Assembly: GCF_009830125.1 (NCBI RefSeq)
Contig: NZ_WUPT01000002.1
Span: 124,001 to 188,000 of the forward strand
Reading direction: 5' to 3'
DNA: 64,000 nt
Source of the DNA: Kangsaoukella pontilimi
GTDB lineage: Bacteria > Pseudomonadota > Alphaproteobacteria > Rhodobacterales > Rhodobacteraceae
Shown here: piece after piece, positions 47,123-54,302 of the stretch
Numbering within the stretch: position 1 is the first letter of the stretch
Layout of the letters: each line of letters starts with the position of its first letter
Position numbers and translations under genes: made by a program
Notes under the pieces: model-generated
What the model saw: the letters and a program-made list of their open reading frames with translations, nothing else
What the model was told of the DNA's origin: nothing
The model's database searches: none

Positions 47123-48520
47123 ATGACTGACAGCACAAGTTTCGATCAGCGCCGGCTTCGGTCGAACTGGGTCCGGCTTCGGACGCTGATCGTTCTGCGC
47201 TGGTTCGCGATTGCCGGGCAGTTGGCCGCGATCACGGTGGCGCAGCGCCTGTTCGAACTGAACCTGAACCTCGGGCTGTGTTTCCTGGCCATCGGCGCGG
47301 CTATTGTGACCAACCTGATCGCGATCTTCGTCTTCCCCGAAAACCGCCGCCTGAGCGAGCGCGAAGTGGCCGGAATGCTGGTCTTCGACATCGGGCAGCT
47401 TGGGTTCCTGCTGTATCTCACCGGCGGCCTGAACAACCCCTTTGCCCTTCTGATCATGGCGCCCGTCACCATCTCGGCAGCGACGCTCAGCGGCAGGACA
47501 ACGGCGCTTCTCGGCGCGCTGACAATCGGGCTCGTGTCGGCACTGGCCTTCTGGCACCTGCCGCTGCGCACCGATCTGGGTTTCGTCATGCGCATGCCGC
47601 AGGATTTTGTCTGGGGTTTCTGGACGGCCATCACCATCGGCATCGTTTTCCTGGCGATTTATGTCGGTCGCGTCGCAACCGAGATCAACACGATGTCCGA
47701 CGCCCTCGCCGCGACCCAGATGGCATTGGCCCGTGAACAGAAGCTGACCGATCTCGGCGGCGTCGTGGCAGCTGCGGCGCATGAGCTCGGGACGCCCCTT
47801 GCCACGATCAAACTGGTCAGCGCCGAACTGATCGAAGAGCTCGAAGAGCATCCGGACCTTCTGGAAGACGCGCGATTGATCCGCGATCAGGCGGATCGCT
47901 GCCGCGATATCCTGCGCTCGATGGGTCAGGCCGGGAAAAGCGACCACCACATGCGGCAGGCCCCGATCGGCGCGGTCGTCCGCGAGGCGGCGGAGCCTCA
48001 CCGTGACCGTGGCAAGGAATTGCATTACGACATTGCCCCTGCGGAAGGTACCGATCCCGAGCAACCGATCATCGACCGGTCACCGGAAATTATCCACGGC
48101 TTGCGCAACCTCGTTCAGAACGCAGTCGATTTCGCGTCGGCCAATGTCTGGGTGGATATCTTCTGGACGGACACGACACTGAGCGTGCGAATTGTTGATG
48201 ACGGTCCGGGCTACTCAACGAACGTGATCGGACGGCTTGGCGATCCGTTTCTGAGACGCCGGAGGCGCGGCCAGACGCGCCGTCCGGGATACGAGGGGAT
48301 GGGCCTCGGTCTGTTCATCGCCAAAACGCTGCTGGAGCGAACCGGCGCCGAGATCACCTTCGCCAATGGGCGCGAGCCCTACGATGCCCGCGCCATCGCC
48401 GGCGAGCGGTCGGGCGCCATCGTTCAGGCCACATGGGTGCGCGCTCAGGTCGGTCGCGAGGCCGAAGCCCGCGCAGCCCTGGGGCAGAATACTCCTATCG
48501 CCGCACCTCACGTGCGCTGA
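47123..48520 (+). CDS. regB: Redox sensor histidine kinase RegB/PrrB
   Basis: 465 residues from ATG 47123; upstream start 47063 would overlap senC. Six membrane segments; quinone motif GGLNNPF (101-107). H-box AAAHELGTPLATIKL with His220, redox Cys260 in ADRCRDILRSMG, exactly 40 residues apart as in R. capsulatus (225/265). ATP-binding parts LVQNAVDFA and GMGLGLFIAKTLLERTG intact. It phosphorylates RegA according to ubiquinone and cysteine redox state. Confidence 0.97.
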   Translation: MTDSTSFDQRRLRSNWVRLRTLIVLRWFAIAGQLAAITVAQRLFELNLNLGLCFLAIGAAIVTNLIAIFVFPENRRLSEREVAGMLVFDIGQLGFLLYLTGGLNNPFALLIMAPVTISAATLSGRTTALLGALTIGLVSALAFWHLPLRTDLGFVMRMPQDFVWGFWTAITIGIVFLAIYVGRVATEINTMSDALAATQMALAREQKLTDLGGVVAAAAHELGTPLATIKLVSAELIEELEEHPDLLEDARLIRDQADRCRDILRSMGQAGKSDHHMRQAPIGAVVREAAEPHRDRGKELHYDIAPAEGTDPEQPIIDRSPEIIHGLRNLVQNAVDFASANVWVDIFWTDTTLSVRIVDDGPGYSTNVIGRLGDPFLRRRRRGQTRRPGYEGMGLGLFIAKTLLERTGAEITFANGREPYDARAIAGERSGAIVQATWVRAQVGREAEARAALGQNTPIAAPHVR

Positions 48521-48541
48521 AATCCTGCGACGGCGGATTTG

Positions 48542-48557
48542 TTAACGGCCCATTAAC
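48542..48557. promoter_or_regulatory. CtrA box (TTAA-N7-TTAA)
   Basis: TTAA at 48542-48545 and 48553-48556 with a 7-base spacer, followed by C at 48557, matches the alphaproteobacterial CtrA full site exactly. It lies about 45 bases before the GTG start of the PAS gene. CtrA is the cell-cycle and motility regulator that DivL controls in Caulobacter. Confidence 0.7.
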
Positions 48558-48602
48558 CCTGATCGCAGAGGCTCGTCCCGATAACGCAAAGGGGGGCTTT
48601 AC

Positions 48603-50153
48603 GTGATCAACCTGCTTCACCCTGCGCTCTTTGGCGCTGCGGCATTTCTGTCTGCTATCGCGACCTATCGGCTGGTCGTCCGCAATGCGGGCGCGGGCCT
48701 TGTCGGCAATAGCCGTCGCCGGGCCGAAACTGTCTCGGAGCCGATCGTATATCTCATCAGGAACGGTGTACTGGCGGATTCAAATTTTGAGGGCGAGCGC
48801 TTTCTGCAGCGCTTTCCTCTTGCTCCGTCCGGCATGTCACGCCTGCGTGCGGCGCTGGCCAGTCAGTTCGACGGCGTCGATGCGCTGATCCGACCGGGTT
48901 CAGGAAGTTCGGACGTCCATGCGGCGTCCCGTGACGGAAGCCTTCTTCTGACGTCCGAATCCGTCCAAAACGCAGTTCGTATCAGGATCTTTCCCTCGGG
49001 CGAGCATCGTTCGGGCCATGACGACCTCTATCGCAAGGTGGCCAGCGAGGCCGAGTTGGAGACGCTTCGCGAAAGCACCGAGCATTCTCCTTTCCTCGTC
49101 TGGCGCGAGGCGCCCGACGGAACGCCCGTCTGGGTGAACCGCGCCTATGCCGACAGCGTCGGTGCAGCTTTCGGGAGTGAGCGACTCTTGTCATGGCCCC
49201 TGCCGCGCCTCTTCCCCGATCTCAGAAGCGGCGGGGCGCGCCGTCTGTCGCTTGCGAATGCTGCGGGCAAGTCGCTCGATTGGTACGACATTCATTCTAC
49301 GCGGATCGGCGACGACACTCTCTTCACGGCGTTCAATGCCAGCGCGACGGTTCAGGCGGAAACCCAGCTCAAGGACTTTATGCAGACGCTGACCAAGACA
49401 TTTGCACAGCTAGATATCGGGCTGGCGATTTTCGACAAATCCCGCCAACTGGTTCTGTTCAATCCGGCGCTGACCGATCTGACGGGTTTGCCGATAGACT
49501 TTCTCACCGCACGCCCCAGCCTTGTCGCGCTCCTCGACAAGCTCAGGGAAAAGCGGATGCTGCCAGAGCCACGCGACTACAAGTCTTGGCGCCAATCCAT
49601 CGCAGAGCTTGAGGCCGCAGCCGCAGACGGCACGTACTCCGAGACATGGCTTCTGCCGGGAAACCGGACCTTTCGCGTGACGGGCCGCCCGCATCCCGAC
49701 GGGGCCATCGCGTTCCTCATACAGGATATATCTGCCGAGGTTTCGCTGACCCGCCGTTTCCGGTCCGAGATCGAGACCGGGCAGACCGTGCTCGACAATA
49801 TGGATCAGGCCGTCGCTGTGTTTTCCGCCAGCGGAGCGCTGATCCTGTCGAACCGTGCTTATCGTCGGGCGTTCTCGGTCGATCCCGAAGCCCGGCTTGA
49901 ACCTGCGTCCATCGTCGATGCCACCCGGCTCTGGCACGCGCATTCCGCGCCGACCCCGATCTGGGGCGACGTGCGGGATTTCGCCCGCGACGATACCGAG
50001 CGCGCGGAATGGGCGGCGACGGTGACCCTGAAGGACGGTCGCAACATGGTTTGCCGGTTCATCCCTCTCGCCGATGGCGGAATGCAGACGGTTTTCGATA
50101 TTGGCGGCGCTGTTTCCGGTCCCGTCGAGGATGACCTGATGGCGGTGGTGTGA
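48603..50153 (+). CDS. PAS-domain protein, DivL-like
   Basis: 516 residues from GTG 48603. One membrane segment (residues about 5-24), then several PAS-type domains: SPFLVWREAPDGTPVWVNRAY, LDIGLAIFDKSRQLVLFNPALTDLTGL, VLDNMDQAVAVFSASGALILSNRAY. No histidine-kinase HATPase domain follows, whereas Caulobacter DivL has one. In that organism divL precedes tsaE, as here. Rhodobacterales DivL proteins are reported to lack the kinase part. A CtrA box lies upstream. Confidence 0.7.
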   Translation: MINLLHPALFGAAAFLSAIATYRLVVRNAGAGLVGNSRRRAETVSEPIVYLIRNGVLADSNFEGERFLQRFPLAPSGMSRLRAALASQFDGVDALIRPGSGSSDVHAASRDGSLLLTSESVQNAVRIRIFPSGEHRSGHDDLYRKVASEAELETLRESTEHSPFLVWREAPDGTPVWVNRAYADSVGAAFGSERLLSWPLPRLFPDLRSGGARRLSLANAAGKSLDWYDIHSTRIGDDTLFTAFNASATVQAETQLKDFMQTLTKTFAQLDIGLAIFDKSRQLVLFNPALTDLTGLPIDFLTARPSLVALLDKLREKRMLPEPRDYKSWRQSIAELEAAAADGTYSETWLLPGNRTFRVTGRPHPDGAIAFLIQDISAEVSLTRRFRSEIETGQTVLDNMDQAVAVFSASGALILSNRAYRRAFSVDPEARLEPASIVDATRLWHAHSAPTPIWGDVRDFARDDTERAEWAATVTLKDGRNMVCRFIPLADGGMQTVFDIGGAVSGPVEDDLMAVV

Positions 50154-50195: not shown

Positions 50196-50684
50196 ATGTC
50201 CGCCGAGATCCGCCTTCACCTTTCCGATGCCGAAGCGACAGAACGGCTTGCCGTGGCGCTTGCGCCGCTCCTGCGCGCGGGCGACACGCTTTTGCTGGAC
50301 GGGCCCATCGGCGCGGGAAAGACCCATTTCGCGCGGTCCCTGATCCAGTGGCGTCTGGCAGAGGCAGGACTGTCCGAAGACGTGCCCTCGCCCACGTTCA
50401 CATTGGTGCAAACCTATGACGACGGACAGGTCGAGATCTGGCACGCGGATCTCTATCGCCTTTCCGATCCATTAGAGGTGGTCGAGCTGGGTCTGGACGA
50501 GGCCATGCAAAGCGCCATCGCTCTGATCGAATGGCCGGACCGGCTGGGCGATATGGCACCGGCGGACGCCTGTCGCCTGCGCTTTGCCCATGATGGCGAA
50601 GGGCGGAGCGTTGTGATCGACTGGTCCGATAGCAGAGCAGACCTTTGGCGACGATCCTTCGAGGAAGAGGCCGCCACCGCATGA
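50196..50684 (+). CDS. tsaE: tRNA threonylcarbamoyladenosine ATPase TsaE
   Basis: 162 residues. P-loop GPIGAGKTHFARSLIQW, SPTFTLVQTYDDG and WHADLYRLSDPLEVVELGLDEAM are the YjeE/TsaE signature. It uses ATP in the t6A complex with TsaD (also encoded here) and TsaB. The stop overlaps the murU ATG by four bases (ATGA). Confidence 0.96.
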   Translation: MSAEIRLHLSDAEATERLAVALAPLLRAGDTLLLDGPIGAGKTHFARSLIQWRLAEAGLSEDVPSPTFTLVQTYDDGQVEIWHADLYRLSDPLEVVELGLDEAMQSAIALIEWPDRLGDMAPADACRLRFAHDGEGRSVVIDWSDSRADLWRRSFEEEAATA

Positions 50685-51367
50685 GCGACATGCCCCGCTC
50701 TATGATGATTTTCGCCGCTGGCTTCGGAACGCGCATGGGTGCGCTGACGAAAGACCTGCCCAAGCCGATGCTGCCCGTGGCAGGTCAGCCCATGATCGAC
50801 ATCGCGATCTCGATGGGTCGTTCGGCGGGTCTGAGTACTCTTGTCGCGAACACGCACTATCTGGCCCACCGGATCGAGCCGCATCTCACCGAGCGTGGCG
50901 TCGCGATCAGCCGGGAAGAGCCCGAGATTCTCGATACAGGCGGCGGTCTCAAGGCCGCGCTGCCGCTTCTGGGGCCGGGCCCGGTCGTCACGATGAACCC
51001 CGACGCCGGCTGGCGCGGCCCGAACCCGGTCGAACAGCTTCTGGGCGCGTGGCGCGAGGACGATGGCGCGCTCTTGCTGGTCGTGCCGATGGAACGTGCC
51101 CTCGGGCGGCAGGGCGGCGGAGACTTCACGCTCGATGGTGGTAGGCTCAGCCGGGGCGGCGATTACGTTTACTGTGGTGTCCAGATCCTCCGCACCGAAA
51201 TACTTGCCGATATTTCCGACACCGCCTTCTCGCTCAATCAGGTCTGGGACCGGCTGAATGCCGACGGTCGGCTCAGAGGGATCGAATACGCTGGCGACTG
51301 GTGCGACATCGGCCACCCCGAGGGACTGACGCTGGCCGAGCGGATGATGGCGACCGGCCATGTTTGA
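50681..51367 (+). CDS. murU: Nucleotidyltransferase of the MurU type
   Basis: 228 residues from ATG 50681 (SDMPRSMMIFAAGFGTRMG); the upstream start 50645 is in tsaE. The sugar-nucleotidyltransferase motif is AAGFGTRMGALTKDLPKPMLP, with NTP/metal-site region TMNPDAGW and GDYVYCGVQILR. MurU makes UDP-MurNAc from MurNAc-1-phosphate and UTP in cell-wall recycling. Its usual partner AmgK is not in the gap to tsaE (see findings). It overlaps addB by 8 bases. Confidence 0.85.
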   Translation: MSDMPRSMMIFAAGFGTRMGALTKDLPKPMLPVAGQPMIDIAISMGRSAGLSTLVANTHYLAHRIEPHLTERGVAISREEPEILDTGGGLKAALPLLGPGPVVTMNPDAGWRGPNPVEQLLGAWREDDGALLLVVPMERALGRQGGGDFTLDGGRLSRGGDYVYCGVQILRTEILADISDTAFSLNQVWDRLNADGRLRGIEYAGDWCDIGHPEGLTLAERMMATGHV

Positions 51368-54302
51368 TCCAACCGATACCCCCCGCGTCTTCGGCGTGCC
51401 GCCCGGCGCGGATTTTCCCGACGCCGTGGTCACGGGCATTCTGGACCGGATGTCAGGGCAACCGCCCGAGGCACTCGCCCGGGTGACGGTTCTGGTCAAC
51501 ACGCGCCGGATGCAGCGACGGTTGCGAGAGCTCTTTTCTCGCGACACCGCCCGGCTTTTGCCGCGCATCCGGCTTGTGACCGACATTGCCGAGTTAGTGC
51601 CGACGGCACCCCTACCCCGCCCCACCTCAGCGCTTGCAAGGCGGCTGGAACTTGCTCGTCTCATCGCCGCGCTGCTCGATCAGGATCCGACGCTGGCGCC
51701 GCGCGCCGCGCTTTTCGATCTGGCCGACAGCCTTGCCGCGCTTCTGGACGAAATGCAGGTCGAAGGCGTGCCGCCCGACCGGCTGCGCAACATCCGCACC
51801 GGCGATGGCTCCGGCCATTGGGCACGCACGCAGACGTTCCTTGGTGTGGTCACCGACTATCTCGCTGCCACCGACGACGGTCAGGCCAATCCTGAGGCGA
51901 TCAATCGCGCCGCGCTGGATATTCTTCTGGACGGCTGGTCGCAGGACCCGCCGGATGGACCCGTCATTGTTGCAGGTTCGACCGGATCGCGCGGCACCAC
52001 GTTCCGACTAATGCAGGCCGTGGCGTCGCTGCCGCAAGGCGCTCTTATCCTGCCCGGTTTCGACGATCACCTCCCCAGTGAAATCTGGTCGCTTCTGACC
52101 GATGGCAACGGAGTCGAGGATCACCCGCAATACCGCTTCGCCCTGCTTCTAAAGGCGCTCGGCGTTGCCCCGGGTCAGGTTTCGCCCTGGCCCAGCGCGG
52201 TACCGGATCCAGCGCGGAACGCGCTTGTCTCGCTGTCGCTGCGCCCTGCCCCGGTCACCGATCAGTGGTTGTCGGAAGGACCAGCGCTGGGTGACCTGAT
52301 CCCCGCCACGTCGCGCATGACCCTGATCGAAGCGCCCGGCCAGCGCGCAGAGGCTACGGCCATTTCGGTCGCGATCCGCGACGCCGTCGAACGTGGCGAG
52401 ACGGTCGCGCTGATCACACCTGACCGCGTTCTGGGGCGCCGCGTCGCCGCCAGCCTCGCCCGTTGGGATATCCAGCCCGATGACAGCGCCGGCCAGCCGT
52501 TGAACCAAACCGCGCCCGGCCGGTTTCTGCGCCAGGCTGTCCGGCTGATCGGAGCTGAAGTGACCTCTGAGGCGCTGGTCGCGATGCTCAAGCATCCGCT
52601 GGTCCGGTCGGGGGACGCGGATCGCGGCCCGCATCTTTTGCATACGCGGGATTTCGAGTTGCTCTTGCGGCGGCGAGGCACCCATCTTCCCGGTCAGGCC
52701 GATCTGGATGCCTTCACCGACGCGAAACCCGAGCGCAGCGAATGGGCGGATTGGATTGCCCGCGTTCTGGATATCGCGCGTGTCGTACCTGATCCCTCGC
52801 TTGGGCTGATGGTGGACGCACATCTTCGCCTTGCCGAGCTTATTGCGGATGGCGGCACGGGCGGTGGCACACTCTGGCGCGAACAGGCAGGCAGGGACAT
52901 CTCGGTTCTGATGGACCGGTTCCGAGAGACGGGCGCGTCCGGGGCACCGATGCCCCTTCCGGACTATATCCGGCTGTTCGACCGCGCCCTTGCGGCCGAA
53001 AACATGCGAAACCCGGACACCGTGCGGCGCGACGTGATGATCTGGGGGACGCTTGAGGCGCGCGTCCAGGGGGCGAGCCTTGTCATTCTCGGCGGCCTAA
53101 ACGACGGGTCCTGGCCGGGCACGCCCAGCGCCGACCCATGGCTCAACCGTGCCATGCGCCGCGAGGCGGGGCTTCTGCTGCCGGAACGTCAGATCGGGCT
53201 GTCCGCACACGATTATCAGCAAGCCGTTGCGGCGGAGACGGTGATCCTCTCGCGCTCTCTGAGGGATGCCGAAGCGCAAACAGTTCCTTCGCGTTGGCTG
53301 AACCGATTCACGAACCTTCTCAGGGGTTTGCCCAATCAGAATGGGCAAGCCGCGCTCGACGCGATGAAAGACCGCGGCAAGCGGTATCTGGATATCGCAC
53401 AAGGGCTGGAGACACCCGTTGAACCGGAGCAGCCGGCGCCGCGCCCTGCCCCGGCGCCGCCGGTGTCCGTCCGACCGCGCACGCTTTCCGTCACCGAGAT
53501 CGAAACGCTGATCCGCGATCCCTATGCCATCTACGCCAAACATGTGCTCAGGGTGAAACCGCTCGATCCCTTGCGACCGAGGCCCGACATGGCTCTGAGG
53601 GGCATCGTCTATCACGAAATCATGGATCGTGCGCTCGCTTTCGGGCCGTTTGAGGACGCGAAATCCCTTGAACAGTGCCTGATTTCAAAGGCCAGGGAGG
53701 TTCTGGGCGAAACCGTGCCCTGGCCGTCTGCCCGCGTTCAGTGGGGCGCCCATTTCGAGGCGATCGCGCCTGGTTTCTCTGAACGAGAGATTGTTCGACA
53801 GGTGCGCGCCCAACGCATCTGGCGCGAGCAATGGGGCGAGATTCCCCTGGGCAATGGCTATACGATCAAGGGCAAGGCTGATCGCATCGACCTCCTGAAA
53901 GACGGACGGCTGGCGATTTTCGACTACAAGGCGGGGGGACCGCCCTCGGCCAAGCGGATGCGCTATTTCCAGCGGCAGCTTCTGATCGAGGCGGTGATGG
54001 CCAAGGCTGGCGGGTTCAAGGATATCGACCCTGCCGAGGTCGCCTTTGTCAGCCATCTCGGGCTGGACAGGAAGCATGGCGAGGACATGCACGAACTGGT
54101 GGCGGGTGACGAGCTGGACTTCAGAACAGTCACTATTTCAGCGGAATTGAGCCAGTTGGTTACGGCTTTCGACAATCCGGACAAAGGATATCCGTCGCGG
54201 CGCGCCATGGAGGAACTGGCATGGGATGGCGACTATGACCATCTGGCGCGATATGGGGAGTGGGACGACACGAAGCCGGCGACAAAGGTCTTGCTGCCAT
54301 GA
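51360..54302 (+). CDS. addB: Double-strand break repair protein AddB
   Basis: 980 residues. N-terminal helicase-like region has lost its usual Walker A. The C-terminal nuclease domain has the RecB-type PD-(D/E)xK core GRLAIFDYKAGGPPSAKRMRYFQRQLLIEA and GIVYHEIMDRAL. AddAB processes double-strand DNA ends and loads RecA at Chi-like sites. ATG overlaps murU and the stop overlaps addA. Confidence 0.95.
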   Translation: MFDPTDTPRVFGVPPGADFPDAVVTGILDRMSGQPPEALARVTVLVNTRRMQRRLRELFSRDTARLLPRIRLVTDIAELVPTAPLPRPTSALARRLELARLIAALLDQDPTLAPRAALFDLADSLAALLDEMQVEGVPPDRLRNIRTGDGSGHWARTQTFLGVVTDYLAATDDGQANPEAINRAALDILLDGWSQDPPDGPVIVAGSTGSRGTTFRLMQAVASLPQGALILPGFDDHLPSEIWSLLTDGNGVEDHPQYRFALLLKALGVAPGQVSPWPSAVPDPARNALVSLSLRPAPVTDQWLSEGPALGDLIPATSRMTLIEAPGQRAEATAISVAIRDAVERGETVALITPDRVLGRRVAASLARWDIQPDDSAGQPLNQTAPGRFLRQAVRLIGAEVTSEALVAMLKHPLVRSGDADRGPHLLHTRDFELLLRRRGTHLPGQADLDAFTDAKPERSEWADWIARVLDIARVVPDPSLGLMVDAHLRLAELIADGGTGGGTLWREQAGRDISVLMDRFRETGASGAPMPLPDYIRLFDRALAAENMRNPDTVRRDVMIWGTLEARVQGASLVILGGLNDGSWPGTPSADPWLNRAMRREAGLLLPERQIGLSAHDYQQAVAAETVILSRSLRDAEAQTVPSRWLNRFTNLLRGLPNQNGQAALDAMKDRGKRYLDIAQGLETPVEPEQPAPRPAPAPPVSVRPRTLSVTEIETLIRDPYAIYAKHVLRVKPLDPLRPRPDMALRGIVYHEIMDRALAFGPFEDAKSLEQCLISKAREVLGETVPWPSARVQWGAHFEAIAPGFSEREIVRQVRAQRIWREQWGEIPLGNGYTIKGKADRIDLLKDGRLAIFDYKAGGPPSAKRMRYFQRQLLIEAVMAKAGGFKDIDPAEVAFVSHLGLDRKHGEDMHELVAGDELDFRTVTISAELSQLVTAFDNPDKGYPSRRAMEELAWDGDYDHLARYGEWDDTKPATKVLLP

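Follow-up and report, generated by a model that had tools for sequence, protein, structure and literature searches.

The window, the whole 64-kb stretch of DNA analysed here, contains a gene for a 516-aa PAS protein (short divL) that follows regB and precedes tsaE, a MurU-like gene and addB, all on the plus strand. An exact match to the CtrA box is located between regB and divL. The features are as follows.

47126-48520, +: regB, redox sensor histidine kinase (NF045988, HisKinRegBRhodob, E 3e-225, over cut-off)
48542-48557, +: CtrA box TTAACGGCCCATTAAC (TTAA-N7-TTAAC), exact pattern match
48568-48573, +: inferred -10 element GAGGCT (nAnnnT), 26-31 bases past the box start, from a conserved offset in orthologous promoters
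48603-50153, +: short divL, 516 aa, GTG start; helix and four PAS domains, no DHp-CA module (Pfam and AlphaFold2)
48606-48701, +: predicted N-terminal helix, residues 2-33 (AlphaFold2)
48744-48995, +: PAS-like domain 1, residues about 48-131 (predicted structure, order of strands and helices; no Pfam match)
49095-49337, +: PAS-like domain 2, residues about 165-245 (predicted structure, order of strands and helices)
49416-49727, +: PAS domain 3, residues about 272-375 (PAS_7 at 268-380 and AlphaFold2)
49809-50102, +: PAS domain 4, the last, residues about 403-500 (PAS_4 at 397-430 and AlphaFold2)
50196-50684, +: tsaE (TIGR00150, E 3e-26, over cut-off)
50681-51367, +: MurU-like nucleotidyltransferase gene (NF045697, E 5e-45, below cut-off)
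51360-54302, +: addB (TIGR02786, E 3e-259, over cut-off)

The perfect TTAA-N7-TTAAC that the initial annotation had placed before the PAS gene was recovered at 48542-48557, with the divL start located 45 bases past it. The site is also readable on the minus strand (TTAATGGGCCGTTAAC, 48541-48556), and these two strand-hits mark the only place of the pattern in the window, compared with an average of 0.01 in 100 dinucleotide shuffles.

Pfam analysis of the 516-aa protein revealed PAS_7, PAS_4 and PAS_8 matches, each above cut-off, and listed neither HisKA nor HATPase at E<=1. In the AlphaFold2 model (53-row alignment, mean pLDDT 88.4, pTM 0.48), the N-terminal helix is followed by four PAS-like domains connected via long helices, and the predicted chain terminates 16 residues beyond PAS 4; a DHp-CA module with Tyr at the phospho-acceptor site is absent according to both Pfam and the model. 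A fold search of the PDB returned multi-PAS proteins with low TM-scores, the best being PpsR (4hh2), and a PDB sequence search gave a single weak match, BvgS. Caulobacter crescentus DivL, which acts on CckA, resembles short DivL in its front part, where a membrane helix (1-53) is followed by several PAS domains up to about 522 (three after 152); DHp-CA comes after these (PMC4211667). By comparison with these residues 1-53, helix 2-33 is probably a membrane anchor. In contrast, the DHp-CA pseudokinase of the Caulobacter protein (construct 523-769, Tyr550), which senses DivK~P, has no counterpart in short DivL, which stops at that border.

The initial annotation had called the PAS gene DivL-like from its tsaE neighbour and its PAS layout, and both grounds held, with TIGR00150 matched downstream, PAS domains only in Pfam, and a helix and PAS chain in the AlphaFold2 model; judged from sequence and predicted structure, the gene is confirmed as the short DivL of Rhodobacterales. 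It had also regarded this DivL as exceptional in ending after the PAS domains. The kinase is indeed absent by Pfam and AlphaFold2, but the kinase-less form is described as the rule in the order (PMC2877005, PMC9430884). Control of divL by CtrA was predicted by Brilli et al. 2010, who also reported the kinase domain as missing in Rhodobacterales without DivK (PMC2877005), and the truncation of DivL was mapped in 2022 (PMC9430884). The short divL genes of R. capsulatus (rcc00042) and D. shibae (Dshi_3433) likewise encode PAS domains without a kinase (PMC2877005, PMC6473078); both are reported as CtrA-dependent, with a CtrA site predicted for D. shibae (PMC4046655, PMC6363796), and, by published description, we found nothing that distinguishes the present locus from either of them. 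The locus is ordinary for Rhodobacterales, and what its analysis adds is how widely the box is conserved, how the promoter is laid out, and which box-free relatives could test a rewiring.

Matches of the 516-aa protein were found in 384 of the 390 genomes of the order; the remaining six, searched again with long DivL, gave weak kinase-type matches only. Assignment of these genomes to Rhodobacterales follows the names of the matching protein models and the titles of the titled loci. The box was counted in a set of 147 genomes (137 genera) drawn from the 384 and composed of 89 among the matches listed and a single genome from each of 58 other genera. Before divL, 135 of these genomes contain exact TTAA-N7-TTAA, nine deviate at one of its eight fixed bases, and three contain neither form. 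A second set of titled loci, which are the best 80 of 569 relatives with no random draw and whose strains partly overlap the 147-genome set, contained 78 exact boxes and two with one mismatch; it includes Celeribacter, Pacificibacter, Rhodobacter viridis (L329), Thioclava and Defluviimonas. Dinucleotide shuffles of the same upstream stretches yielded a box in a mean of 0.375 of the 147 (largest 1, 40 rounds), compared with 133 observed in that analysis, and an equally long stretch farther upstream yielded a box in none of the 147. Alternative TTAA-TTAA spacings of 3 to 12 bases occurred in 0-3 of 147. Note that the shuffle, spacing and -10 counts rest on 133 exact boxes, with G176 and G008 excluded there; the divL genes of these two genomes have shortened N-termini, their boxes are exact with respect to their own frames, and they are counted within the 135. 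The initial annotation had named a box before the orthologues as a check of its reading, and these counts confirmed that the box is conserved at orthologous divL promoters across the order.

Among genomes beyond the 147, the box was exact in G039, G141, G153 and G160, carried one mismatch in G269 and was absent from G059 and G226. A short DivL without a recognisable box, which speaks against the feedback reading, was seen in G046 (L199) and, outside the 147, in G059 (L202), although the box is present in G057 and G153, two genomes of the same genus as G059. In G269 (L206, L217), G039 (L207, L215) and G132, divL lies in two pieces, which are possibly decaying genes or sequencing errors.

Alignment of the promoters on the box revealed a leaning to TTAACC-N5-TTAACCATT and a -10-like pair, A27/T31 or A28/T32 from the box, in 110 of the 133 orthologous promoters, these offsets having been chosen on this same alignment. 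Among the 133, control counts of the pair were 2-19 for offsets 29 to 71 and 2-11 for offsets 18 to 25; offsets 26 and 28 gave 61 of 133 each, sharing the same pairs, and the 33 of 133 at offset 17 reflect the box consensus itself. Since the start codon lies at a varying distance from the box while the A/T pair stays, the pair is tied to the box. The fixed pair would place the 5' end of the box at about -38 to -39 of a predicted divL transcription start at about 48580. Full CtrA sites of Caulobacter with a 5' end near -35 (ctrA P2: -39) are described as going with activation, and half-sites over the -10 with repression (PMC4287350). The present promoter shares TTAA-N7-TTAA, with a predicted 5' end near -39, with full-site promoters such as ctrA P2 (PMC4287350), its start being deduced from the conserved -10-like element. 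The predicted layout fits the activating type and a direct control of divL by CtrA. As feedback between CtrA and divL was predicted in 2010, the idea itself is not new; what is new here is the scale, in that a prediction from a few genomes holds in nearly every genus examined of the order, with a fixed activating-type layout.

Comparison of gene order revealed that regB precedes divL in 59 of the 60 order loci compared and in 79 of the 80 titled loci (best 80 of 569 relatives), while regB was found on the same strand upstream of long DivL-like genes in none of 70 outgroup loci outside the order. Within the order, regB-divL (47126-48603) is thus a fixed arrangement that joins a CtrA-pathway gene to that of a redox kinase. 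Downstream of divL, tsaE was present in 49 of 60 order loci. In the 80 titled loci (best 80 of 569), tsaE, the murU-like gene and addB each turned up behind divL in 66, and all three jointly in 53. tsaE is possibly co-transcribed with divL. In 14 of the 80 titled loci (L299-L310 and others; best 80 of 569), tsaE was not found within 3.7-4.0 kb; there the box is kept and the gene order behind it differs.

In the genome as a whole, TTAA-N7-TTAAC gave 15 strand-hits at 10 places in 3.69 Mb, and the backwards-read control pattern gave 54. Since the control pattern is commoner, the box pattern is not over-represented, and the weight of the divL box therefore comes from its position and conservation. 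One protein of the genome scored over the cut-off of the CtrA model. Its gene, ctrA, is preceded by a 7/8 box site (one mismatch), and an exact box precedes a gene with CckA as best NCBIfam match (partial protein, below the model cut-off). Other neighbours of boxes are a divergent pair of a yifB/comM-like gene and rpoH, dprA, and a luxR-like and luxI-like pair (Lux matches below cut-offs); a tadA-like ATPase gene (below the model cut-off) lies about 570 bases from a box. For most of these kinds of gene, control by CtrA is reported in D. shibae, where dprA, however, is assigned to LexA (PMC4046655, PMC6473078). Three of the 10 places, near carA, a gene for a surface-type protein and a hypothetical gene (named by eye), have no visible link to CtrA.

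Published expression data of relatives bear on the regulation of divL. For D. shibae, divL (Dshi_3433) is reported with a predicted CtrA site in its promoter and with lowered mRNA in ctrA, cckA and chpT mutants (PMC4046655). R. capsulatus divL is reported to be down in ctrA knockouts and to show merely a mild rise upon ctrA overexpression (PMC6363796). In P. inhibens, divL1 is reported to be down in ctrA and cckA mutants; it is one of two divL homologues and perhaps not the short gene (PMC12363192), and in both P. inhibens and D. shibae more than one gene is named divL. According to PMC9143464, which cites Westbye 2018, CckA activity is increased by R. capsulatus DivL. In R. sphaeroides, the CckA inhibitor Osp is described in a negative feedback loop (PMC9430884), so that the net feedback may be mixed.

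The initial annotation had taken the site to suggest direct feedback of CtrA on DivL. Conservation at the orthologues, the promoter geometry and the published divL expression support this suggestion, with CtrA binding as a prediction. We estimate at roughly 85% the probability that CtrA, CckA and DivL form a positive feedback loop in which the promoter of short DivL is activated by CtrA. What the present locus and genome show directly is a conserved box with the -10-like element at fixed distance behind it, a DivL lacking the kinase part, and genes for CtrA and a CckA-like protein, the latter gene preceded by a box of its own. From relatives come the lowering of divL mRNA by CtrA loss and the raising of CckA activity by DivL, which would apply here by analogy; occupancy of the box, the position of the transcription start and the loop's sign in this organism we infer. 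Phosphorylated CtrA would occupy the box over the -35 region and recruit RNA polymerase, and the promoter, with its -10 at 26-31 bases past the box start, would switch on divL and perhaps drive tsaE, the murU-like gene and addB too. The product, four PAS domains in a row on a membrane anchor and with no kinase output, would bind and stimulate CckA, which would phosphorylate CtrA through ChpT and so close the positive loop. DivL would then be controlled by its amount and not by DivK. In species that produce gene transfer agents (GTA), the loop would stand upstream of the CtrA-dependent maturation and release of GTA (PMC6363796).

The sign of the feedback could be the reverse if CtrA bound the box and repressed divL, as is known for some promoters where it sits over the -10 (PMC4287350). 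The repressing sites described there, however, are half-sites over the -10, while at divL a full site lies ahead of a conserved -10-like element; moreover, divL falls when ctrA is mutated in D. shibae or R. capsulatus (PMC4046655, PMC6363796). On promoter geometry and the published mutants, we judged negative feedback to be very unlikely. Alternatively, the site might serve mainly another regulator that shares TTAAC, for example one of the Fnr/Dnr redox type, which would fit the adjoining regB: the Dnr/Fnr site of D. shibae has the half-site TTAAC, and FnrL has been suggested to bind beside R. capsulatus divL (PMC7232146). That site is TTAAC-N4-GTCAA, whereas the orthologous promoters contain TTAA-N7-TTAA in 133 of 147 genomes and TTAA-N4-TTAA, the N4 pattern that was counted, in none, and divL is reported as CtrA-dependent in D. 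shibae and R. capsulatus (PMC4046655, PMC6363796). Spacing and repeat direction thus make an Fnr/Dnr site highly improbable.

Conserved gene order would also allow a promoter that exists mainly for tsaE, the murU-like gene and addB, with DivL incidental; each of the three genes is retained in 66 of the 80 titled loci, and all three in 53 (best 80 of 569). The box, however, was exact in 14 of 14 titled loci (best 80 of 569) without tsaE within 3.7-4.0 kb of the match start and in 11 of 11 tsaE-less loci of the first set, and divL itself is reported as CtrA-dependent in relatives (PMC4046655, PMC6363796), which renders this explanation unlikely. A functionless chance or relic match, to which the similar matches elsewhere in the genome (15 strand-hits) might point, is next to incredible for a box kept across genera against an expectation of 0.4 of 147 and coupled in spacing to the -10; it was rejected on the shuffles and the upstream control stretch.

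Analysis of long DivL proteins provided a comparison with loci that contain no box. Within the order, G109 and G140 encode a long DivL with HisKA over cut-off and HATPase below threshold only, and G226, of the genus of G109, has the same HisKA stretch by eye; this long-DivL lineage comprises three genomes in two genera. No CtrA box was found before the long divL of any of the three, the best site matching 6/8 bases (that of G140 inside the end of regB). All three have tsaE behind divL, and regB lies directly ahead of it in G109 and G140; in G226, regB ends about 0.9 kb ahead of the divL frame. Compared with the present locus, they belong to the same order and share the PAS chain, tsaE behind and regB in front, and differ by the HisKA stretch and the missing box. 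Long DivL with degenerate kinase domains has already been described in early-branching Rhodobacterales, namely Oceanicella and Albimonas (PMC9430884); the three genomes resemble this group, and their belonging to the named genera is a guess. As a separate observation, TAAACC-N5-TTGACA precedes the long divL of G109 and G226 (L194, L195); it matches 6/8 box bases and includes the sigma-70 -35 consensus hexamer. A further genome, G197, encodes a DivL of 750 aa with no HisKA or HATPase match, and its box is present.

The outgroup consisted of 70 loci, picked from the best matches obtained when 289 genomes of the class were searched with a long DivL. Being drawn from best matches, it will include PAS kinases other than DivL, and the 24 loci with tsaE downstream are safer; in these, tsaE was located by profile search from overlapping to about 1.2 kb downstream (an earlier Walker-motif pattern gave 5 of 30 loci). 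Outside the order, a box preceded 2 of the 70 long DivL-like genes and none of the 24 with tsaE downstream. A tree of 48 selected rows (31 short and four long forms of the order, and 13 of the 24 outgroup rows as root) placed G109, G140 and G226 as sister (100/99) to the 31 short forms plus G197, which grouped together (100/99), and paired G197 with the short form of G343 (100/99). Three long branches among the short rows and odd composition in five rows were flagged in this tree.

Box gain and kinase loss map to one branch of the sampled tree, as one event; since each changes once, the link between them lies beyond statistical testing. We raise tentatively, and at clearly less than even odds, the idea that a single coupled rewiring near the base of Rhodobacterales removed the DivK-sensing kinase half of DivL and brought in the box; control by DivK~P would have been replaced by a CtrA-set amount of DivL, with the box inserted between an already adjoining regB and divL. 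Under such a coupled rewiring, the long-DivL lineage of G109, G140 and G226 would show the state that preceded it. G197, for its part, suggests that the box preceded full shortening. Our literature search found no paper on the timing of box and truncation, nor on the fixed -10, which is no proof of absence. Because box-free relatives with long DivL survive, a swap of a protein-level input (DivK) for a transcriptional one alongside the loss of the DivL kinase half is testable.

Two further box places of the genome concern other genes. At L034 (G000:C1:1456749-1456764), a perfect box lies between mltG and a terminase gene resembling the start of a GTA cluster. Among the 29 best-matching relatives of this locus, 13 had a site with at most one mismatch, four of them exact, in the interval 150-900 bases ahead of the terminase match, and 11 of these 13 sites fell at -415 to -456, in a count made without a shuffle control. 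In R. capsulatus, CtrA is reported as not seen binding the GTA promoter (PMC6363796). At L043 (G000:C5:72147), a box lies about 200 bases ahead of a luxR-like and then a luxI-like gene, comparable to the CtrA sites reported before luxR2 in D. shibae (PMC4046655).
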